The position numbers and the translations under genes are program-made. This document shows positions 32,808-45,235 of a stretch of DNA of 64,000 nt, in pieces. Position 1 is the first letter of the stretch. The number at the start of each line of letters is the position of its first letter. The DNA is taken from contig JAHBXW010000001.1 of NCBI GenBank assembly GCA_019636235.1, positions 372,001 to 436,000 on the forward strand, in the 5' to 3' direction. The notes under the pieces are model-generated. The model was not told where the DNA came from, ran no database searches, and saw nothing but the letters and a program-made list of their open reading frames with translations. This stretch comes from Planctomyces sp. GTDB taxonomy: Bacteria > Planctomycetota > Planctomycetia > Planctomycetales > Planctomycetaceae.

Positions 32808-36074
<3,267 letters not shown>

Positions 36075-36142
36075 TTGCCGAAATCAGAGGAATCGGAAAG
36101 AATTTTCGTGGCGCCCGGATCCGGATGCCGCCGGTGCATGTC

Positions 36143-37240
36143 ATGAGATTGCGCGTCACAATCGCGGGACTCGCCGCGTTCGCCCTGGCTACCCAATTCT
36201 GGACGGCCAGGGGGGATGAGATTGCCGCGTCCCCGCCGGAAGCCACTGACGAGGCGATCGTCGACTCTGATGCGGAGTCCGAGATGCCCGAAGCTGATCG
36301 CGGCCGACTGAACATTCCCACCTGGACGCTCGGCGGCCGTCAGTTCTGGGGGGATGTCGCCTTTTTTCACGGTTGGCGCATTCAGCACAACGTCTTCACC
36401 GGCCATTACCGACTGCTCGATCCGCGCGACGTCCGACAGGCCTGGGGATCGCTGGCGGCCTGCCGGCAGGTCCTGGACGACCAGCAGCAGCGGCTGGGCC
36501 TCAAACCAATGTCAGGACGGGCCGTCGTGCTGATCCACGGAGTCGTCCGGTCGTCGAAGTCGTTCGCCGCCATGAAGACCGCACTCGAACGGGACGGCGC
36601 GATCGTCGTGCCCTTCGACTACCCCAGCACTCGGATGACGATCGACTCGTCCTCCGAGTATCTGCACCAGACGCTCGAATCCCTCGAGGGCGTGGACCGG
36701 ATCGATTTCGTTGTGCACAGCATGGGCGGCCTCGTAGTGCGGAGCTATCTCAGGAATCATCGCGATCCGCGACTGGGCCGGCTGGTCATGCTGGGCGTGC
36801 CGAACCATGGCGCGCGGCTGGCGAACATTCTCCGCGACGTGTCGCTGTTCAAGGCGATCTTCGGTCCGGCCGGCCAGCAACTGATCGAAGGGAACGGGGA
36901 GTTCATCGATTCGCTGCCGGCGCCAGATTTCCCCTTCGCGGTCGTTGCCGGAGCGCGCGGCGACACGGAGGGATACAACCCGTTGATTCCCGGCGACGAC
37001 GACGGCACGGTCAGCGTCGACTGCACGCGGCTCGCGGGGGCGACAGACTTCATGACGGTCCCCGCCATCCATTCCTTCCTGATGGGCAATCCCGACGTCA
37101 TCGCAGCGACGCTTCGGTTTCTCAGCAGCGGCGCGCTGCGGGAGTCGGGCGAGGCGCAGCCCGTCTGCCCTGCTCCGGCCCCAGAGCCGATCCCGGCCGC
37201 TGAACCGGCCCCAGTGCCGGCCCCAGTGCCGGCCCCTTGA
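36143..37240 (+). CDS. Exported alpha/beta hydrolase (lipase/esterase-like)
   Basis: A 365-residue exported hydrolase. A signal peptide (MRLRVTIAGLAAFALA) leads into the alpha/beta core. VVLIHGVVRSSKSF gives the oxyanion-loop region, the nucleophile Ser is in VVHSMGGLVVR (about 193), the likely Asp is in GDDDGTV (about 285) and the His in AIHSFLM (about 309). PGAP1/lipase-like proteins share this order. The C-terminus is a Pro/Ala-rich tail made by a 12-base repeat. An in-frame ATG six codons earlier (36125) is an alternative start. It follows carB by under 70 bases. Confidence 0.8.
   Translation: MRLRVTIAGLAAFALATQFWTARGDEIAASPPEATDEAIVDSDAESEMPEADRGRLNIPTWTLGGRQFWGDVAFFHGWRIQHNVFTGHYRLLDPRDVRQAWGSLAACRQVLDDQQQRLGLKPMSGRAVVLIHGVVRSSKSFAAMKTALERDGAIVVPFDYPSTRMTIDSSSEYLHQTLESLEGVDRIDFVVHSMGGLVVRSYLRNHRDPRLGRLVMLGVPNHGARLANILRDVSLFKAIFGPAGQQLIEGNGEFIDSLPAPDFPFAVVAGARGDTEGYNPLIPGDDDGTVSVDCTRLAGATDFMTVPAIHSFLMGNPDVIAATLRFLSSGALRESGEAQPVCPAPAPEPIPAAEPAPVPAPVPAP
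37205..37236 (+). repeat. 12-base tandem repeat in hydrolase C-terminal tail
   Basis: The unit CCGGCCCCAGTG occurs at 37205-37216 and 37217-37228, followed by a partial copy to 37236. It encodes a PAPV-type tail immediately before the stop codon and may vary in copy number between strains. Confidence 0.8.
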
Positions 37241-37358
37241 CCTGTCGCTCGGGACCGCTGATCGTATCCCTGCAAGTCCGAACGTCGGACCGGTGATGGC
37301 GCTAACGGGCGCCTTCCCGAACGTCGCCCGCGCAGCCGCATCGATCGCCAACGTCCCC

Positions 37359-37817
37359 ATGCCCCTCCATGTTTCCCGCCGGCGCGTCCAGTTCTCCGAG
37401 ACGGACATGGCCGGCATTGTGCACTTCGCCAATTTCTATCGCTGGATGGAAGAGGCCGAGCACGACTACTTCCGCTCGCTGGGGCTGCGGATCATGGAGC
37501 CGCGAGACGACGGCAATATGCTGGGCTGGCCGCGCGTTTCGGCGTCCTGCAATTATGTGGCTCCCGCGAAGTACGAGGACGAAATCGACGTGCGGCTGGA
37601 CGTGGAGCGGGTCGGGCTGCGATCCGTCTCGTACGTGTTCGAGTTTGTGCGCGGCGAGCAGACTTTGGCCCGCGGCCGGATGAAGAGCGCCTGCTGCATC
37701 TGCCGGCCGGACGGCACGCTGACGTCGGTGGATCTTCCGGAACGGCATCGGGAACTGATTCGCGAGTCCGCCCCAGCCGCGCGGGCCGGCGATGCGACGT
37801 CCGAATCCGCCGCGTAG
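37359..37817 (+). CDS. YbgC/4HBT-type acyl-CoA thioesterase
   Basis: A 152-residue hotdog-fold protein. The start of the domain, RRVQFSETDMAGIVHFANFYRWMEEAEHDYF, carries the YbgC/FadM active-site Asp and the HFANFYRWME helix in their usual places. YbgC-like enzymes hydrolyse short or hydroxylated acyl-CoAs. A GTG/ATG pair at 37293-37298 would add 22 residues before MPLHVSRRRV; neither start has a clear ribosome binding site. The role in this neighbourhood is not apparent. Confidence 0.85.
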   Translation: MPLHVSRRRVQFSETDMAGIVHFANFYRWMEEAEHDYFRSLGLRIMEPRDDGNMLGWPRVSASCNYVAPAKYEDEIDVRLDVERVGLRSVSYVFEFVRGEQTLARGRMKSACCICRPDGTLTSVDLPERHRELIRESAPAARAGDATSESAA

Positions 37818-37861
37818 TCCGCTTCGCCTGTCGCCGGAACGCCCCGCCCCCGCCCGAACCA

Positions 37862-38497
37862 ATGCCGACTGACAGAACCGACCAGTTGCTCGTCGAGCGG
37901 ATTCGCGAGGGAGATCCGGACGCCTGGCGCGACTGCATCGCGCGGTATGAGGGGCGGCTGATCGCGTTCGTCGACAGCCGCATCCGGGACCGCGCGGCGG
38001 CGGAAGACATCGTCCAGGAGACGTTTCTGGGCTTCCTGAACGCCCTGTCCAATTACAACACCGCCACTCCGCTGGACGCGTTTCTGTTCGCGATCGCGGC
38101 CCACAAGCTGACGGACCTGCTCCGCCGGCAGGGGCGTCGTCCGGCATTCCGGGCGGGGGACTCGACGACCGAGGAGACGCCGGAGTTCGCGGGGCGGGAC
38201 CGCGTCGCGTCGAGCCTGGCCCGCAGCCAGGAGCGGCGGGTCATCGAGGAGGAATTCGTGGCGGGCGTGCTGGGACCGTTGATCGCCGAGTGGCGGGCGC
38301 GCGGCCAGTTCGAGCGTTTGAAGTGTGCGGAACTGCTGCTGGTCAAAGGTCTGCCGAATAAGGACGTCGCCCGTGTGCTGGGAATCACCGAGCAGGACGT
38401 CGCGAATCAGAAGCACGCGCTGCTGTCGAAGCTGAAGACGGCGGCGGAGAAATCGCGGCTGCGGAGCCTGGACCTGTCGGACCTGGGCGGGGCCTGA
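37862..38497 (+). CDS. ECF-type RNA polymerase sigma factor
   Basis: A 211-residue sigma-70-like factor. Region 2 (residues about 20-85) contains LIAFVDSRIRDRAAAEDIVQ and ETFLGFLNAL, with the core-binding helix typical of ECF factors. Region 4 (about 150-200) has KGLPNKDVARVLGITEQDVA, a helix-turn-helix. The linker between is short and acidic. It lies about 280 bases upstream of the Flp pilin genes, so a link to their unusual shared promoter motif is possible but untested. No anti-sigma factor is adjacent. Confidence 0.85.
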   Translation: MPTDRTDQLLVERIREGDPDAWRDCIARYEGRLIAFVDSRIRDRAAAEDIVQETFLGFLNALSNYNTATPLDAFLFAIAAHKLTDLLRRQGRRPAFRAGDSTTEETPEFAGRDRVASSLARSQERRVIEEEFVAGVLGPLIAEWRARGQFERLKCAELLLVKGLPNKDVARVLGITEQDVANQKHALLSKLKTAAEKSRLRSLDLSDLGGA

Positions 38498-38570
38498 GCG
38501 GGCGCCTGCGTGCCGGCGCCGGATGTTGCTAATAATCAACGTCGAAATCGACTTCGGAAGCGGAACCGAT

Positions 38571-38601
38571 TTGACCCCCGCGGGGCGCGGCCTAGGTTTG
38601 C
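38571..38601 (+). promoter_or_regulatory. flp1 promoter-like element, TTGACC / CCTAGGTTTGC
   Basis: TTGACC at 38571-38576, a 16-base spacer, then TAGGTT at 38593-38598 within CCTAGGTTTGC. The same arrangement occurs before flp2 and a weaker one before cpaA. The resulting leader would be about 170 bases. Confidence 0.6.
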
Positions 38602-38774
38602 GCGAAGCCTGTCGGGGGAGGGTCGCGCAAGTGCGGGCCGAGGTTCCCCGGAGTTGGCTGCGTTCGCCTTCAGGAGGAATGGCGTGTGATTCCATCGTGG
38701 GAGCCCGTGCCTGTGTGAGCGGCGGGCTGCCCGATTTCCGCGACGCGGAAATGTGCGCATTGGGGAACTCTCAG

Positions 38775-38939
38775 ATGATGACGTCGATCAAGCGGTTTCT
38801 GAAATCGGAAGACGGCCCGACGGCGGTTGAGTACGCCGTGATGCTGGCGCTGATCGTGGTGGTCTGCCTGGCCGGCGTTCGCGCCGTGGGCACCAACGCG
38901 GCCGACAAGTTCAATGACGTGAAGAACTCGCTGACCTGA
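38775..38939 (+). CDS. Flp/Fap-type pilin 1
   Basis: A 54-residue type IVb pilin precursor and likely major subunit of a Tad pilus. The prepilin site is EDG followed by PTAVEY, with Glu+5 and Tyr+6 of the mature protein as required for Flp maturation. A hydrophobic helix AVMLALIVVVCL follows. It is 47/54 identical to the second pilin downstream. The frame extends far upstream, but ATG 38775 has GGGGA eight bases before it and matches the start of its twin. Own promoter-like motif and own terminator. Confidence 0.9.
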   Translation: MMTSIKRFLKSEDGPTAVEYAVMLALIVVVCLAGVRAVGTNAADKFNDVKNSLT

Positions 38940-38974
38940 GTCCTTCCGCGGCGGCGTTGCCGCTGCCTGCCCCG

Positions 38975-39000
38975 CGCCCGGCGACTTGCCGGGCGTTTTT
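38975..39000 (+). terminator. Rho-independent terminator after flp1
   Basis: A perfect 8-bp stem CGCCCGGC / GCCGGGCG (38975-38982 and 38988-38995) with a 5-base loop, followed by five T. It ends the first pilin transcript. Confidence 0.9.
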
Positions 39001-39055
39001 CATTTGGGGGATTCAGGCAGGACCGGACGAATCTGACAAATTCTCCGATCGCGGT

Positions 39056-39086
39056 TTGACTGCCCGCAAACTCGACCTAGGTTTGC
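39056..39086 (+). promoter_or_regulatory. flp2 promoter-like element, TTGACT / CCTAGGTTTGC
   Basis: TTGACT at 39056-39061, a 16-base spacer, then TAGGTT at 39078-39083 within CCTAGGTTTGC. The 11-base core is identical to that of flp1 and the spacing is the same. The leader to the ATG would be about 210 bases. Confidence 0.6.
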
Positions 39087-39230
39087 CTGTTCGAGGTCCG
39101 CCGCGAGCCGCGACGGTTCGGACATTCCCCGCCGTCCGAATCCTCGGCGGCGCGTTTCTCCGGGTCTGGCCCCGCTGTGCTGCGGGGAGTGTGATTCGGT
39201 CGGCTGTGGTCGCTTCGCCGCGAGTACTGG

Positions 39231-39267
39231 CGGACGTCCGGGGCCGATCAATCGGTGCGGACGTCCG
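39231..39267 (+). promoter_or_regulatory. Duplicated palindrome in flp2 leader
   Basis: The 10-base palindrome CGGACGTCCG occurs at 39231-39240 and again at 39258-39267. Between them is CCGAT-CA-ATCGG (39244-39255), itself an inverted repeat. The block lies 36-72 bases before the flp2 start and could be an operator or a structured leader RNA. Confidence 0.45.
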
Positions 39268-39302
39268 TCCGGGCCGACGTGTGTGCAACAGAGGACAAAA
39301 CA

Positions 39303-39467
39303 ATGCTGAACTCCGTGAAGAAGTTTCTGAAGTCGGAAGACGGCCCGACCGCCGTCGAATACGCCGTCATGCTGGCCCTGATCGTCGTGGTCTGCCTCAC
39401 GGCCGTCCGCGCGATCGGCACGAACGCGGCCGACAAGTTCAACGACGTCAAGAACAGCCTCACGTAA
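39303..39467 (+). CDS. Flp/Fap-type pilin 2
   Basis: A 54-residue Flp pilin, 47/54 identical to pilin 1. It has the same EDG-PTAVEY processing site, the same hydrophobic helix and the same C-terminal end NAADKFNDVKNSLT. Differences are confined to positions 2, 3, 5, 7 and 33-38. ATG 39303 has GAGG eight bases upstream. It has its own promoter-like motif and terminator, so the pair arose by tandem duplication that included the regulatory DNA. Either could be major pilin; dosage or switching is possible. Confidence 0.92.
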   Translation: MLNSVKKFLKSEDGPTAVEYAVMLALIVVVCLTAVRAIGTNAADKFNDVKNSLT

Positions 39468-39515
39468 GCCTCGCCGGTCGCGTTCCGCGGCCTTGTCGAC
39501 GCTTTCGCGATCGCC

Positions 39516-39549
39516 CGCCCGGCCGGATTCCATCCGCACCGGGCGTTTT
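39516..39549 (+). terminator. Rho-independent terminator after flp2
   Basis: CGCCCGG (39516-39522) pairs with CCGGGCG (39539-39545), with an inner CGGAT/ATCCG helix, followed by TTTT. The outer stem has the same core sequence as the other two terminators in this cluster. Confidence 0.85.
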
Positions 39550-39611
39550 GCTGTCGCCGGGCGTCGCAGGTCCAGGACCTGCCGCGGCCGAGCCTCTGAG
39601 GGAGACGTGAG

Positions 39612-39725
39612 ATGTTCCCGTTCTGGATCGATCTGCCGGCGCTTCCGCTGGCGCAGTGGATGTCGGTCGCCGCGGCGGGCTCCTGCGCGTTCTACGTGCA
39701 CCTGCTGCTGTGCAGCCGCAGTTGA
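39612..39725 (+). CDS. 37-residue small membrane protein
   Basis: A short ORF that starts MFPFWIDLPALPLAQWM and continues with a hydrophobic Ala/Val/Leu stretch ending HLLLCSRS. GGAG lies seven bases before the ATG and a strong terminator starts 20 bases after the stop, giving a compact gene-like unit between the pilins and cpaA. It has one predicted membrane helix (about 17-34) and no Flp processing site, so it is not a third pilin. No family recognised; it may be a small accessory of the pilus system or fortuitous. Confidence 0.5.
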   Translation: MFPFWIDLPALPLAQWMSVAAAGSCAFYVHLLLCSRS

Positions 39726-39744
39726 AAACGGCACTGAGTGGAAA

Positions 39745-39781
39745 CGCCCGGCGGGAAGCAATTCGCGCCGGGCGTTTTTTT
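39745..39781 (+). terminator. Rho-independent terminator after the small membrane ORF
   Basis: A perfect 9-bp stem CGCCCGGCG / CGCCGGGCG (39745-39753 and 39766-39774) with a 12-base loop, followed by seven T. It is the third terminator in this cluster with the same stem core. Confidence 0.92.
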
Positions 39782-39940
39782 GCGCCCCCTCCCCCGCTGC
39801 GATCCAGGGGCGCCGAATGCGCACCGCCGCCGACGGTCCCGCCCAGCCCCCGCAGGCGGACGTCGGGGCGCGAATGTGCATGACGTGACAGCTATGCCGC
39901 CGCGCGCCGGAAAATCCGCGGCAAATCCCGGGCCCACGAC

Positions 39941-39969
39941 TTCGAGGGCCTGCGGCATGACCTAGGTTT
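39941..39969 (+). promoter_or_regulatory. cpaA promoter-like element, CCTAGGTTT
   Basis: CCTAGGTTT at 39961-39969 matches the cores upstream of flp1 and flp2, and the preceding GA is shared with flp2. Sixteen bases upstream of TAGGTT lies TTCGAG (39941-39946), a poor match to TTGAC. About 90 bases before the cpaA start. Confidence 0.45.
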
Positions 39970-40060
39970 CCAGAGCACCGCGGCATCCGGTTTGTCTGCC
40001 GCGCGGACTGTGCCCCCCAGAAGACTCCCCTCACCCATCGAACGGAAAGGCGGTTGCGCC

Positions 40061-40612
40061 GTGGACTGGCAACAGATTCTGATCGAGAACTGGCATGTGA
40101 AGCTGGTGTGCGTGACGTTGATCGTCGCGGCCTGGATTGACGGCAAGGAACTCCGCGTTCCGAACTGGATCACGTTTCCGATGGTCCTGGCCGGCTTGCT
40201 GTACAGCTTCGCCATTGGCGGCTGGGAGGGGCTGGGCCACGGTCTGATCGGAATGTGCGTGGGCCTCGCCACCCTGATGCCGCTGTACGCGGTGGGGGGG
40301 ATGGGGGCCGGCGACGTGAAGCTGATGGCTGGCGTCGGCGCCTGGCTGGGCCCGCAGGTGACCTGGAACGCGTTTCTGGTGTCGGCCGTCGTGGGCGGCG
40401 GAATGGCCCTGGCGATGGTGCTGTACCGCAAGGCCTGGAACAAGCATTACGGCAACGCGATGTTGATCCTGTCGGAGATGGCGACGGTCAAGGATCCGCG
40501 CGAGCTGTCGAAGATCGCCGCGGATCGGAAGCCGCACATGCTGCTGCTGCCGTACGGCATCCCGATCTGCATCGGTTCGATCGCGTACTTCCTGTACGCG
40601 GGGATGATCTGA
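40061..40612 (+). CDS. cpaA: Tad-type prepilin peptidase (CpaA/TadV)
   Basis: A 183-residue polytopic aspartic peptidase of the A24 family that cleaves Flp prepilins at the inner membrane. The two catalytic Asp blocks are AAWIDGKELRVPNWITFP and GGMGAGDVKLMAG. There is no N-methylating domain, as expected for the Tad type. About six membrane segments. Start GTG 40061 has AAAGG ten bases upstream; the frame opens at 39992. Confidence 0.9.
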   Translation: MDWQQILIENWHVKLVCVTLIVAAWIDGKELRVPNWITFPMVLAGLLYSFAIGGWEGLGHGLIGMCVGLATLMPLYAVGGMGAGDVKLMAGVGAWLGPQVTWNAFLVSAVVGGGMALAMVLYRKAWNKHYGNAMLILSEMATVKDPRELSKIAADRKPHMLLLPYGIPICIGSIAYFLYAGMI

Positions 40613-40823
40613 GCGAGACCGGCGGAAACGGCCGCAGGCGTTGCGGTCGGCTTCGCAAACGGGGCGGTTTGAGGGGTTGGACGGCACGACCGTCACAGGC
40701 GTTTCAATTGTTGCAACCCGCATAGATTGAAGCAGGGCGTTCCAGGCTGCCGATTCTGACACTGGAATCGTGTCGGCCCCGGAGCGCCTCGCGTGCGGGC
40801 GGAAAGACCTCAGGGCGATCGTC

Positions 40824-41918
40824 ATGAAACCCAAGACACTGGCGCTGTTGTGCGTTGCGGTCGGATGCGGCCTGGTGGCCATGATCGGCGTGCAGCAAGC
40901 GATGAACAAACCCTCGGCCGCGAAGGTGGAAACCATCCAGGTGCTCCAGGCCATCGACGCCATCGATCCCGGCGTTCCGCTGACGGAGGAACTCGTCGTG
41001 TTTCGCGAGATTCCACGCGACGCGGCGCCGGAGGACTGCATCACGCGGATCGAGGAATACCAGCAGCGGTCGCTGACAGTGGCGGTCGTGAAAGGGGACT
41101 ACATCCTCAAGGGCAAGCTCAGCGACAAAGGCGTGTCGGGCAAGTCGATCCAGATTCCGATCGGCAAGACGGCCGTCACGATCAATGTGGACGAGACCCA
41201 GACGGCGAGCGGCATGGTCAAGGCCGGAGACAAAGTGGACGTGACCGTCACTTACGACGCGCGGACGCCTACCGGCGTGCAGACCAAGACCATGACGCTC
41301 CTCGAATGCGTCACGATCTTCGCGATCGCCGACCAGACCAAGAACGACATGGCCAAGCGGACCGACACCAACGCCGTCAAAGCCCGGCAGGTGTCGCTGA
41401 TCGTCGAATACGACCAGGCCAACTGGCTGGTCCTCGCGGAACGCAAGGGCCAGTTGCGGTTGCTGTGGCGGAACCCGCTGGACACGGCGATCCGCAGCAC
41501 GCGGGCCGTCACGGACAATTTGCTGTCGGAACTGCGGGGCCTGGACACCGGGTCGCGGGAGCGGCCGCTGTACGGCGAGTCGGACGAGGCGCCGCCGGAG
41601 TCTCCGGTGATCGCGGCCGAACCCGAACAGAAGCCGGACGTGCAGCAGTTCCTGGCCCAGCCCGCCCCGGTGGCCGTTGAGCCGCAGCCCGCGGCCGACC
41701 CGTCGCGTCCCACCTGGGATGTCAAGGTGTACGTGGGCAACGACGTGCAGTCGTATGCATTCGAAATGACGGAAGCGAAGAAAAACGAGGAAGCCGCAGG
41801 CGCGTCGACGACTTCGACGAACTCCGGCGGCCTGCTGGATCGCTTCGGCTGGTCGCTGCCCTGGACGGCCCGCAAGGCCCCCACGGAGGAGCCGGCCGCG
41901 ACGAATCAGGCGTTGTGA
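40824..41918 (+). CDS. cpaB: Flp pilus assembly protein CpaB/RcpC
   Basis: A 364-residue periplasmic assembly protein with an N-terminal membrane anchor (TLALLCVAVGCGLVAMIGV). A SAF domain (about 40-100) begins VLQAIDAIDPGVPLTEELV and an RcpC-like region follows with SIQIPIGKTAVTINVDETQT and AGDKVDVTVTY. The C-terminal 120 residues are low-complexity and Pro/Ala-rich. It should interact with the CpaC secretin. AGGG lies eight bases before ATG 40824. Confidence 0.88.
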   Translation: MKPKTLALLCVAVGCGLVAMIGVQQAMNKPSAAKVETIQVLQAIDAIDPGVPLTEELVVFREIPRDAAPEDCITRIEEYQQRSLTVAVVKGDYILKGKLSDKGVSGKSIQIPIGKTAVTINVDETQTASGMVKAGDKVDVTVTYDARTPTGVQTKTMTLLECVTIFAIADQTKNDMAKRTDTNAVKARQVSLIVEYDQANWLVLAERKGQLRLLWRNPLDTAIRSTRAVTDNLLSELRGLDTGSRERPLYGESDEAPPESPVIAAEPEQKPDVQQFLAQPAPVAVEPQPAADPSRPTWDVKVYVGNDVQSYAFEMTEAKKNEEAAGASTTSTNSGGLLDRFGWSLPWTARKAPTEEPAATNQAL

Positions 41919-42091
41919 ACAGAACGGAGACCGGCGGTCGCCCGCAAGGGACGATCGCCGGCCGCCGCTGAGGCGATGGAGAACGGGTCCGAGGAACGGC
42001 GAGGACGCCGGCCCGCGGACGGGAACGTTCGGCGCGACAAGGATGGCCGCGGCCAGGCTGCCAACAGCAGTCTGGCCTGGGAGGTGCAGGG

Positions 42092-43924
42092 ATGCCACGG
42101 TTCAGTCATCGATCACAGACATCGCGGATTGTGCTGCTCGCCGCATTGGCGCTGGGCGCGCTGTCCTCGACAAGCGCGCTGGCTCAATCGTCCGGGACCG
42201 ACTCGCCTCGTCCCGGTGAGCCGGTCGTCTCGATCATCTCCCGCGACACCAAGCTCACGCTCGTCGAGCTGCAGACGCGGCTTCTGGAACTGGGCAACCG
42301 CATTCGCGCCGTCGACGGCCACGACCCCGACGTGCTGACGATCATCCCGGTCTCGAACCAGCGGGTGCGTCTCAAGGCCGAGAAGTCGGGCGTCACCTCG
42401 TTCACGCTGACCGACGAGTTCGACAACATCTACACCGTCGAGGTCTTCGTCGACGCCGACGTCCGCGAACTGCAGGCCTACCTGGGACGGCTGTTCCCCG
42501 GCGCCGCCATTGAAGTCGTGGGTCTGAACGGCAGCGTCGTCCTGCGGGGCTGGGTCACCGAGCCGCAACAGATTCCGCAGATCATGGACGTCGCGGAGAA
42601 GTTCTCCCCGATCGTCCTCAATCAGATGAACGTGGGCGGCGTCAGCACCGTCCAGCTGCAGGTCAAAGTCATGGAGGTGCAGCGCTCCAAGCTGCGTCAG
42701 TTCGGCTTCAACTTTCTGCATGTCGGGCAGCAGAGCTACTTCGCCAGCACGCCCGGCGGCCTGGCGCCCCTGCAGAACGCCACCCTGCCCTTCGGCGGTC
42801 CGCCCAGCGTCACGGTCCAGCCCGGCGCTCTGGCCAATCAGACGATGCAGTTCGCAATCACCGGCTCCAGCGACATCTTCCAGGCCTTCATCGAGGCCGT
42901 GGAAACCGAGTCGCTGGCCAAAGTCATGGCCGACACCGCCCTGGTGACCAACAGCGGCCGCCCCGCGACGCTGCTCGCCGGCGGACAGTTCCCGATCCTG
43001 GTGCCGCAGCAGTTGGGCACAGTGACGATCGAATACCGCGAGTTCGGCGTGCGGATGGAGGCCCTGCCGATCGTGCTGGGCAATGGCCGGCTGCGACTGC
43101 AGGTGTCGCCGGAAGTCAGCGAGCGGGACGTGTCCAGCGCGGTGGTCGTGAACGGATTCACGGTGCCCGGCGTCACGCTGCGGCGGGTGAACACGGAAGT
43201 CGAAATGCGGTTTGGCGAGACGCTGATGCTGGGCGGCCTGATCCTGCAGCGGGAACTTGTCTCAAACACGAAGGTTCCGTTTTTGGGCGATCTGCCGTAC
43301 ATCGGCTCGGCTTTCAGCCGCCGCCGCTCGGAGATCGGCGACACCGAACTCTTGATCATGCTCACGCCGCATATGGCCGCGCCCCTGGCCGCGGGCCAGC
43401 TTCCCATCACCGGGCCGGGCACGAATTCGGAAGCGACGACCAGCCACGAGTTCTACTTCGACGGGTTCGTGGAAGTGCCGAACTACAACCCGCCCCCGGA
43501 AACTCTGGGAGGCATGATGGACGCCGGTTACCCGCCGTCGGTTCCCGGCTACTCGCCCGGACCGGTGCTGGATCCCGGCTTCCTGCCGCCGGTCCAGACT
43601 CCGGCACACGCCGAACCGCATCCGGACGACGCCATGCCGTCGGCCAGTCGCACGGACGGCGTCCAGCAGACATCGGCCCTGTTCGACGTCCGGGCCCGCG
43701 ACCGGGATCGCGGAACGACACTGGGCACGATGCGGCCCTTCGCGACGACCTCGCAGTCGCGGGCGTCCGTCAAATCAAACTCCGGCGACAACATCCGCGG
43801 CACGACGGGCGGACATTCCACCAGCAGCGAATCGGCCGATGCCTCAGGCCGGAGGCTGGAACTGGTCGAACCAGCGCCCGCCGCTCCGCGGTCCTGGTTC
43901 TCGGGAGGCGCCTCTCGCAACTGA
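42092..43924 (+). CDS. cpaC: Tad secretin CpaC/RcpA
   Basis: A 610-residue outer-membrane secretin precursor with a signal peptide ending STSALAQ. The N-terminal part has a pilus-assembly N domain (about 40-125). A BON-like segment (PGAAIEVVGLNGSVVLRGWV) follows. The secretin core (about 200-440) includes VQLQVKVMEVQRSKLRQFG, GETLMLGGLI, and VPFLGDLPYIGSAF with LLIMLTPHM at its end. The last 160 residues are disordered and rich in Pro/Ser/Thr. A strong GGAGG is seven bases before the ATG. Confidence 0.92.
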   Translation: MPRFSHRSQTSRIVLLAALALGALSSTSALAQSSGTDSPRPGEPVVSIISRDTKLTLVELQTRLLELGNRIRAVDGHDPDVLTIIPVSNQRVRLKAEKSGVTSFTLTDEFDNIYTVEVFVDADVRELQAYLGRLFPGAAIEVVGLNGSVVLRGWVTEPQQIPQIMDVAEKFSPIVLNQMNVGGVSTVQLQVKVMEVQRSKLRQFGFNFLHVGQQSYFASTPGGLAPLQNATLPFGGPPSVTVQPGALANQTMQFAITGSSDIFQAFIEAVETESLAKVMADTALVTNSGRPATLLAGGQFPILVPQQLGTVTIEYREFGVRMEALPIVLGNGRLRLQVSPEVSERDVSSAVVVNGFTVPGVTLRRVNTEVEMRFGETLMLGGLILQRELVSNTKVPFLGDLPYIGSAFSRRRSEIGDTELLIMLTPHMAAPLAAGQLPITGPGTNSEATTSHEFYFDGFVEVPNYNPPPETLGGMMDAGYPPSVPGYSPGPVLDPGFLPPVQTPAHAEPHPDDAMPSASRTDGVQQTSALFDVRARDRDRGTTLGTMRPFATTSQSRASVKSNSGDNIRGTTGGHSTSSESADASGRRLELVEPAPAAPRSWFSGGASRN

Positions 43925-44032
43925 TCCGACAGCCACTGCCCGCGCTCCGTCCCCGGAGCAGGTCTCACTGCCTGTGTTGGACTGCCGGCCGAACAGTCCG
44001 CAGTCCCCCTCACTCTGCGATGTCCCGTTGTC

Positions 44033-45235
44033 ATGAATAACGTCGTCCGACTCGCCCTCGTCGACCCCCACGACGCTTCCCGCAACTCGGTGAAAACCCT
44101 GTTGCTGGGAATCGACACCGTGTGGCTCGAGGCCGAGTGCTCCCGCTATGACTTCTTCATCGACATCGTCAACCAGACGCAGCCCGACATCGCGCTCGTG
44201 CACCTCGATGGCGATGCGCAGCGGGCGCTGGCCCTGGTGGCGCAGATCACCCAGGAGCAGCCGGCGTGCGCGGTGTTCGTGATCTCCAGCTCCCAGGAAG
44301 GCAGCCTGATCCTGCAGGCGATGCGGAATGGCGCCAAGGAGTTCCTGCACTCGCCGCTGCGGCTTGACGACTTCATGGCGGCCCTCGACCGCCTGCACGC
44401 CAGCACCGGCAAAAAGGACAAGGCCCGCGGCAGCAAGGTGATCTCCATCTGCGGCGCCAGCGGCGGCGTCGGCTGCACGTCGCTGGCCATCAACCTGGGC
44501 TGCATCCTGGCGCAGAACAAAGCCAACAGCGTTGTCGTCATCGACCTCGACGTCGCGCTGGGGGATTCGGACGTCTGGCTGGACATCATTCCCGATTACA
44601 CGATTCAGGATGTGGCGGACAACATCTCCCGGCTGGATTACTCGCTGCTGAAGCGGTCGCTGTCGCAGCACGCCAGCGGCGCGTTTCTGCTGCCGCGGCC
44701 GATCCACATGGAAGAGGCCGCGCCGATCAACGCGGAGCAGCTGCAGCGCGTCATCGCGCTGCTGCGGGCGACGTTCTCCCACCTGATCATCGATCTCAGC
44801 AAAGCCTATACGCGGCTGGACCTGGCGGCGATTCAGGTGTCCGACGTGACGCTGCTGGTGACGCAGCTCGACCTGCCATGCCTGCGGAACGTCGTCCGGC
44901 TGCTGCAGTTTCTTGACGAGCGCGAAATGAGCGCCCATTTGAAGGTGGTCGTGAACCGCGTCGGCCTCGAGGATTCGCAGATCAGCCTCAGCAAGGCGCT
45001 GGAGACGATCGGCCGCGAGGTGTACTGGCAGCTGCCCAACGACTACGCGACGATGGTCGAGTCCCGCAACAATGGCGTGCCGCTGATCAATCAGGCGCCG
45101 CGCTCCAAGCTCAACAAGTCCGTTGAACTGCTGGCGGCGCAACTGGATTCCACGGCGGCGCCGCCGATAACCGAACCCGCCGAGCCGGCTGACAAACCCA
45201 AACGGAGGTTGTTCAGCTTTCTCGGCAACAAGTAG
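44033..45235 (+). CDS. cpaE: Tad localisation ATPase-like protein CpaE/TadZ
   Basis: A 400-residue protein with an N-terminal receiver-like domain (about 5-120) and a C-terminal MinD/ParA-like domain (about 130-385). The P-loop is GASGGVGCTSLAINLG: both lysines of the deviant Walker A motif KGGVGKT are replaced (Ser143 and Cys148), so nucleotide hydrolysis is doubtful. TadZ proteins place the pilus machine at a cell pole. VVIDLDVALGDSDVWL is the Walker A-prime-like region. It is the last gene of the locus; the motor gene cpaF does not follow. Confidence 0.87.
   Translation: MNNVVRLALVDPHDASRNSVKTLLLGIDTVWLEAECSRYDFFIDIVNQTQPDIALVHLDGDAQRALALVAQITQEQPACAVFVISSSQEGSLILQAMRNGAKEFLHSPLRLDDFMAALDRLHASTGKKDKARGSKVISICGASGGVGCTSLAINLGCILAQNKANSVVVIDLDVALGDSDVWLDIIPDYTIQDVADNISRLDYSLLKRSLSQHASGAFLLPRPIHMEEAAPINAEQLQRVIALLRATFSHLIIDLSKAYTRLDLAAIQVSDVTLLVTQLDLPCLRNVVRLLQFLDEREMSAHLKVVVNRVGLEDSQISLSKALETIGREVYWQLPNDYATMVESRNNGVPLINQAPRSKLNKSVELLAAQLDSTAAPPITEPAEPADKPKRRLFSFLGNK

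Follow-up and report, generated by a model that had tools for sequence, protein, structure and literature searches.

Do the three short genes that precede cpaA in this planctomycete pilus locus form copies of one expression cassette, or do they belong to different transcription units? The window, the whole stretch of DNA that was analysed, covers 64 kb (G000:C1:372001-436000) of the 5.61-Mb genome of a Planctomyces species; judged by cpaA, the closest relatives with a name are records labelled Planctomycetaceae. Within it an ECF-type sigma factor gene is followed by flp1, flp2, a 37-codon open reading frame, cpaA, cpaB, a secretin gene and a cpaE-like gene. A first-pass annotation had proposed that flp1, flp2 and the 37-codon frame, each closed by a hairpin of the same stem, are an iterated cassette giving separate short transcripts insulated from the cpa genes.

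Results

A pilus locus of the Flp/Tad type

Both flp genes encode pilins of the Flp_Fap family, and a prepilin peptidase, CpaB, a secretin and a CpaE-type ATPase are encoded next to them, the composition of a Flp/Tad (type IVc) locus (Table 1). TadE/TadG minor pilins are also encoded in this genome (G000:C43, locus L266; PF07811 60.8 bits, PF13400 35 bits).

Table 1. Features of the pilus locus, with the leader elements of related loci. Positions are those of the window unless a locus (L) is given; R1 is the promoter model described below.
Feature	Position	Strand	Evidence or detail
ECF-type sigma factor gene, directly 5' of the flp1 promoter	37862..38497	+	PF04542 49.4 bits; TIGR02937 above cut-off
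flp1 promoter (predicted): TTTGAC 38570-38575, CCTAGGTTT 38591-38599	38570..38599	+	R1 match E 7.3e-6; R1 seed
flp1, Flp/Fap pilin, 54 aa	38775..38939	+	PF04964 40.8 bits, cut-off 32.2
Hairpin T1: CGCCCGGC GACTT GCCGGGCG + TTTTT	38975..39000	+	stem 38975-38995, then TTTTTC
flp2 promoter (predicted): TTTGAC 39055-39060, CCTAGGTTT 39076-39084	39055..39084	+	R1 match E 3.8e-7; R1 seed
flp2, Flp/Fap pilin, 54 aa	39303..39467	+	PF04964 40.8 bits, above cut-off
Hairpin T2: 7-bp outer stem, bulged inner stem	39516..39549	+	stem 39516-39545, short TTTTGC tail
37-aa membrane microprotein MFPFWIDLPALPLAQWMSVAAAGSCAFYVHLLLCSRS, MxPFW family	39612..39725	+	relatives in 41/61 family genomes; synonymous third-position variation
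Hairpin T3: TTTTTTT tail	39745..39781	+	stem 39745-39774, then TTTTTTTG
Third CCTAGGTTT, 5' of cpaA, without TTTGAC	39961..39969	+	R1 E 0.46; kept 5' of cpaA in congener G001
cpaA, prepilin peptidase	40061..40612	+	PF01478 75.7 bits
cpaB, secretin (cpaC) and cpaE-like genes	40770..45235	+	PF16976/TIGR03177; PF00263; response-regulator-like and ParA/MinD-type (CbiA/MinD-type) matches
c-di-GMP-I-GGC riboswitch (RF03167) in flp leaders	L218:2189-2264, L221:2103-2195, L223:2206-2293, L225:2096-2188, L248:2131-2214		
GGGTC element	L125:4267-4315, L078:2812-2865, L095:4491-4544, and 16 more loci	minus (L125, L095)	

Three hairpins with one stem

The hairpins T1, T2 and T3 begin 36, 49 and 20 bases past the last base of the stop codons of flp1, flp2 and the 37-codon frame, respectively. 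As the first-pass annotation had it, all three are built on the core CGCCCGG/CCGGGCG and run into a T-tract, and in each a G+C-rich stem is followed at once by a T-run, as in a Rho-independent terminator. The RNAfold energies with tails are -17.9 (T1), -19.7 (T2) and -25.6 (T3) kcal/mol, making T3 the most stable; judged by its tail, T2 is the weakest. The sequence CGGGCGTTTT occurs in the 64-kb window at T1, T2 and T3 only. The stem followed by TTTT (CGCCCGGN{3,24}CCGGGCGTTTT) is found four times in the 5.6-Mb genome, three of these being T1, T2 and T3, and the backwards control pattern not at all. The fourth, at C42:94622, lies inside a long reading frame on the other strand and was treated as chance. 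With four exact cases genome-wide, the idea that this stem is the habitual terminator of the genome was ruled out.

Two general searches pointed the other way. A standard terminator scan of positions 36000-42000 gave two sites in all, compared with 4.4 in shuffled sequence, and included T1 alone of the three because its loop limit of 8 excludes both T2 and T3. Similarly, a search for the stem with a fixed 5-nt gap and up to two mismatches returned five window matches, where 4.45 would be expected by chance, and none of them was T1, T2 or T3 because the real loops differ in length.

In related genomes a stem with a T-run lies within 130 nt 3' of 34 of 89 flp stop codons, compared with 85 of 2000 random windows. 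The core itself (CG[CT]CCGG...CCGG[AG]CG) follows 12 of the 89 genes, spread over 10 genomes, and is present in 12 of 5460 random windows; the stem core is one that recurs 3' of flp in other genera, in a minority of cases. Under the criterion used the other 55 flp genes have no hairpin with a T-run, among them that of the congener G001, where one can be folded after flp, but in a stretch chosen by eye. The hairpin 3' of the microprotein gene in G001 has another stem, and three identical stems were not seen there.

Of the 12 core hairpins, six have tails with three T or fewer in eight (1-3 T) and would make poor intrinsic terminators, so that termination may not be the only role of the hairpin. 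It might chiefly serve to stabilise 3' ends or mark processing sites, a long pilin mRNA being trimmed or terminated by Rho; the stem core is kept in relatives despite these weak tails, and a stable hairpin at the 3' end of an abundant pilin mRNA would do the same job. All three hairpins of the window, however, have TTTT or longer directly after the stem, and the general enrichment of stems with T-runs after flp also speaks for intrinsic termination, so we regard this explanation as rather unlikely, though it deserves to be kept in mind.

A promoter motif shared by flp1 and flp2

The upstream regions of flp1 and flp2 have the motif TTTGAC-N15-CCTAGGTTT in common. The first-pass annotation had noted a promoter-like motif before both genes, and the case for it turned out stronger than had been claimed. 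CCTAGGTTT is present in five copies in the 5.6-Mb genome, three of which fall within 1.4 kb on the same strand, 5' of flp1, flp2 and cpaA. In neither species of the genus (the window and G001) does TTTGAC accompany the copy before cpaA. Set in a sigma-70 frame, where hexamers like TTGACA and TATAAT are expected at a distance of 16-18 nt, the predicted flp1 promoter reads TTGACC, 16 nt, TAGGTT. With this 16-nt spacer, the six invariant columns of a 55-row alignment are TTG and TA...T, which are the most important positions of a sigma-70 promoter. A consensus scan of 36000-42000 for sigma-70-like promoters gave none.

Conservation was investigated in a set of 91 flp genes, the two of the window and 89 from other genomes of the family (the search gave 112 rows, of which 21 weak ones, all below the family cut-off, were dropped). 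A 17-position form of the promoter, with up to four mismatches, lies within 500 nt 5' of 63 of these genes, compared with three matches in 739 kb of control sequence; many of the 28 genes from which it is missing are divergent paralogs. Counted by genome, TTTGAC-N13-GACCTAGGTTT (up to 4/17 mismatches, within 500 nt 5' of an flp) is found in 52 of the 57 flp-bearing genomes of the family. In the other five no such promoter precedes any examined flp, and two of them have less than 200 nt of contig upstream. Of 64 picked sites, 61 share one and the same spacing, where offsets of 21-26 were permitted and ties went to the shortest. Because the sites were chosen by the motif itself, part of the conservation seen at the picked letters is a product of that choice, but positions outside the picking motif are also kept: G in 53 of 55 and A in 52 of 55 sites before CC (YGA), as well as an A/T-rich stretch 5' of the motif.

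A sequence model (R1), trained solely on the window's family, was then applied to 148 genomes from the class. It matched (E <=1e-3) in 50, namely 27 of the window's family, nine of a second family (f5) and 14 of other families. The family f5 lay outside the training of the model; nine of its 16 genomes have a match at this threshold, and in all nine a match stands 5' of flp on the same strand, some 420-430 nt away. Loci of named relatives anchored on cpaA, a set that overlaps with the family genomes, give the same picture: the motif lies 5' of cpaA in 67 of 80, including those of Blastopirellula marina DSM 3645 and Lacipirellula limnantheis, with 72 matches in 206 kb of target sequence against 4 in 668 kb of control. 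Nine of the 13 loci without it have less than 1.2 kb of sequence 5' of cpaA. Conservation in relatives had been named as a check by the first-pass annotation, and both the promoter and the 3' hairpin do recur at flp genes across the family.

The neighbouring sigma factor and a wider set of promoter loci

One candidate for the protein that reads TTTGAC...CCTAGGTTT is the product of the ECF sigma gene at 37862-38497, which might encode a dedicated sigma factor. The gene stands directly 5' of flp1, likewise in the congener G001, and of 59 genomes searched, counting the window's own, 57 have a close ortholog. However, in 30 loci it adjoins flp in just two, those of the two members of this genus. 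The 28 other ortholog loci, viewed over up to about 1.5 kb on each side, have no adjoining pilin gene; their loose-pattern matches are not pilin-like, and CCTAGG occurs in only one of them, without TTT. Nor does the presence of the ortholog track the promoter: G010 has the ortholog but neither flp nor an R1 match, and G011 and G021 (completeness 79 and 93%) have flp and promoter matches but no close ortholog. The form TTGAC/TAnnnT, moreover, resembles a sigma-70 promoter and not one of the ECF type. A dedicated role for this sigma factor therefore seems improbable, and it is a weak candidate for the promoter reader. Orthologs of the gene are also present in genomes without an flp match.

The promoter is also found away from flp. 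Twenty non-flp loci were considered, comprising 19 of the best 22 R1 matches among those listed and a weaker one, G000:C2; G015:C148, G031:C418 and G017:C250 were left out of this set. Type IV filament genes lie downstream at seven of the 20 (TadE, Tad twice, N_methyl three times and an STN secretin-type domain), although two of the three N_methyl matches fall slightly short of the curated cut-off and such proteins are frequent among planctomycetes. A further three loci precede GGDEF genes. The other 10 include genes for NrdR, a TPR protein, a response regulator with HTH_17 and a glycosyltransferase; the first open reading frame had no match at L150, L152, L160 and L167, and L151 and L154 were not scanned. 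With filament or GGDEF first genes at 10 of 20 loci, a promoter regulon extending beyond flp is a lead to be followed.

The three GGDEF genes (L161:348-2549, L162:354-2501 and L153:667-2127 (+), in G014, G070 and G019) start 6, 13 and 321 nt downstream of their flp-type promoter matches, and two of them have an HD domain. The best R1 match in the window's genome besides the two flp sites is at C2:113725 (E 0.0024), upstream of a 503-aa open reading frame (L167:390-1898) with no Pfam match.

Leaders of the flp genes

The likeness between flp1 and flp2 raises the possibility that the repeated elements are mere remnants of a recent tandem duplication of flp plus its flanks. The coding sequences are identical at 132 of 165 positions in a gapless alignment, and 3' of them a gapped stretch of about 42 columns running into the hairpin aligns weakly. 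On the 5' side, though, where about 235-270 bases were compared, the best local alignment covers nothing but the promoter (36 columns). Since T3 stands after an unrelated gene and relatives with a single flp bear the same promoter, a duplication remnant is a very unlikely explanation.

In some relatives the leader between promoter and flp holds a c-di-GMP-I-GGC riboswitch (RF03167). It was found in five of the 20 named loci first screened, those of Blastopirellula, Lacipirellula, Aeoliella, a Pirellula and a Thermoguttaceae record; of these, Lacipirellula is the one whose order, Pirellulales, was checked. In f5, all 9 of the 9 genomes with an R1 match also have a riboswitch match placed between that R1 site and flp. 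In other loci of the window's family, no riboswitch reached the gathering score among the 15 remaining sources of the first screen and 20 more (L236, one of the sources screened, is of uncertain family), and positions 37500-41000 of the window have no match to RF03167 or its relatives at E <=1. The window's genome does have one RF03167 match, at C43:139075-139150 (L266:3076-3151, minus), upstream of TadG-like and TadE genes; no flp promoter motif occurs within the 600 nt before it.

Many members of the window's family have another conserved element in their flp leaders, GGGTC-RACCTC-N-GAGGTT followed by T/G-rich sequence; in the loci searched, no Rfam family matched it at the gathering score. 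It may be either an RNA element or a DNA site bound by a protein. A model of this element made from 18 family leaders (R2) matches 19 loci of 87 sources at E <0.02, 18 of which are the seeds, and all lie in flp leaders. It also matches seven of 68 loci of named relatives, some being the same contigs as in the earlier set, and has no match in the window at E <=5. Covariation in the R2 hairpin is not beyond that of shuffled alignments (179 of 500 reach the score), so we claim no RNA structure for it.

The 37-codon frame encodes a conserved microprotein

The proposal that the 37-codon frame is a third copy of the cassette is not supported. No flp-type promoter motif precedes it in the window, and the encoded protein is not a Flp pilin paralog, with no PF04964 match and no EY prepilin site in its sequence; it belongs to an unrelated, conserved family of microproteins that stays with cpaA where it lies apart from flp. 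By tblastn and profile A2 (E <1e-3) the microprotein is present in 41 of 61 genomes of the family, one copy each, 37 of these copies being seeds of the profile. Of the genomes in the class sample, 30 of the 37 that belong to the window's family have it, as does one of the 111 others, there marginally (E 0.0076). Its members have 31-38 aa, start with MxP[FY]W and contain one hydrophobic stretch. A pattern that requires MxP[FY]W occurs in 35 of 81 loci, compared with no match in 1.0 Mb of control.

The frame is very short, and the window's copy has no match in Pfam or NCBIfam, so one might suppose that it is untranslated and that the conserved stretch belongs to an RNA element. In 36 copies chosen by MxP[FY][WF], however, all four Pro codons occur at codon 3 (14, 8, 10 and 4 times) and both Phe codons at codon 4 (17 and 15), an acidic residue is present at position 7 in 31, the start is ATG in 35, the Kyte-Doolittle mean is >=1.6 over 18 residues in 31, and a Shine-Dalgarno-like word from a permissive list precedes 27; this makes an untranslated frame the least credible of the alternatives. 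The synonymous variation indicates that selection acts on the putative microprotein as a protein.

The microprotein gene is on the same contig as flp in 39 of the 41 genomes. In the other two (G029 and G061; loci L202 and L182) it lies apart from flp yet adjoins cpaA, and because it stays with cpaA there we read it as a gene of the cpa side. Either CCTAGGTTT or CCTATGTTT stands 5' of it in these two genomes, the CCTAGGTTT one being an R1 match (E 0.0025). In 29 of 80 loci of relatives it starts about 165-550 nt before cpaA (a thirtieth candidate, L184, was a spurious match 5' of flp), and in some genomes no more than a few dozen bases separate its stop codon from cpaA. Of the separate short units insulated from the cpa genes that had been proposed, those of flp1 and flp2 are supported by the sequence and that of the 37-codon frame is not.

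Discussion

The reading that we favour, with a probability of about 0.7, is that flp1 and flp2 form two units of their own with strong expression and that the microprotein gene is on the cpa side, reached by read-through of T2. In detail, flp1 and flp2 would be two monocistronic pilin units, each starting at a dedicated promoter (YTTGAC, 12 nt, YGACCTAGGTTT) that would be used by a lineage-wide pilus or attachment regulon, with a leader of about 175-215 nt. The CGCCCGG/CCGGGCG hairpin would end most flp transcripts and probably also shield their 3' ends. The product of the 37-codon frame would be a conserved microprotein of the Tad locus that crosses the membrane once, and its gene would go with cpaA; low-level expression through read-through of T2, the weakest hairpin, is most likely, with T3, the strongest, closing the gene off. 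The genes from cpaA onward may be driven from their own region, where the -10-like CCTAGGTTT is present. The net result would be much pilin, with little microprotein and assembly machinery. Of this reading, the analysis shows the sequence elements, how rare they are in the genome, how far they are conserved and that the microprotein forms a family, and the activity of promoters and hairpins, the read-through, the relative amounts and the regulator are inferred. A very high level of pilin relative to the assembly proteins, as the first-pass annotation had expected, is in our view plausible.

In the pilA-cpa locus of Caulobacter the pilin gene also has its own promoter upstream of cpaA, as proposed here, with the difference that this promoter is CtrA-dependent. 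We know of no MxPFW microprotein in Pseudomonas aeruginosa. In one report flp and rcpC of P. aeruginosa are treated as having separate promoters, under PprB and RpoS (PMC6821963), so a pilin gene with its own promoter is already known elsewhere; the likeness to the window is that pilin is driven apart from the assembly genes, and the difference lies in the regulator. A report on the flp-tad locus of Aggregatibacter describes one 14-gene operon, the promoter of which affects flp1 expression (PMC7157720); there, too, Flp pilin and tad genes lie in a single locus, but in the single operon described it is unlike the window. Another parallel is offered by the sister lineage (Blastopirellula, Lacipirellula and others), where the same promoter precedes the RF03167 riboswitch and flp, whereas the flp leaders of the window are without the riboswitch.

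A search of titles and abstract openings, in which subscription journals were thinly covered, found, among the papers listed, no description of the promoter, the microprotein or a c-di-GMP riboswitch before planctomycete flp. Within these limits the promoter and its distribution seem to be new, as do the MxPFW microprotein and the hairpin that recurs after flp.

Taken jointly, these observations allow a broader reading that we offer tentatively, at somewhat less than even odds. Planctomycetales and Pirellulales, two orders of Planctomycetia, may share a regulon dedicated to surface attachment on a single promoter of fixed spacing, YTTGAC-N12-YGACCTAGGTTT, which would be read by a sigma factor or an activator and would drive Flp pilin as well as, at other loci, TadE/TadG, pseudopilins and c-di-GMP enzymes. 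The switch in the leader would be a c-di-GMP-I riboswitch in Pirellulales or the unclassified GGGTC-AACCTC-N-GAGGTT element in many Planctomycetaceae, and MxPFW would be a new membrane component of the Tad system.

For the biology of these bacteria, the locus makes the control of attachment pili in planctomycetes open to testing, through one promoter sequence that can be traced genome-wide. It yields a short list of candidate regulated genes and a small, uncharacterised protein encoded next to the prepilin peptidase and, in the sister order, a link between c-di-GMP and planctomycete pili.
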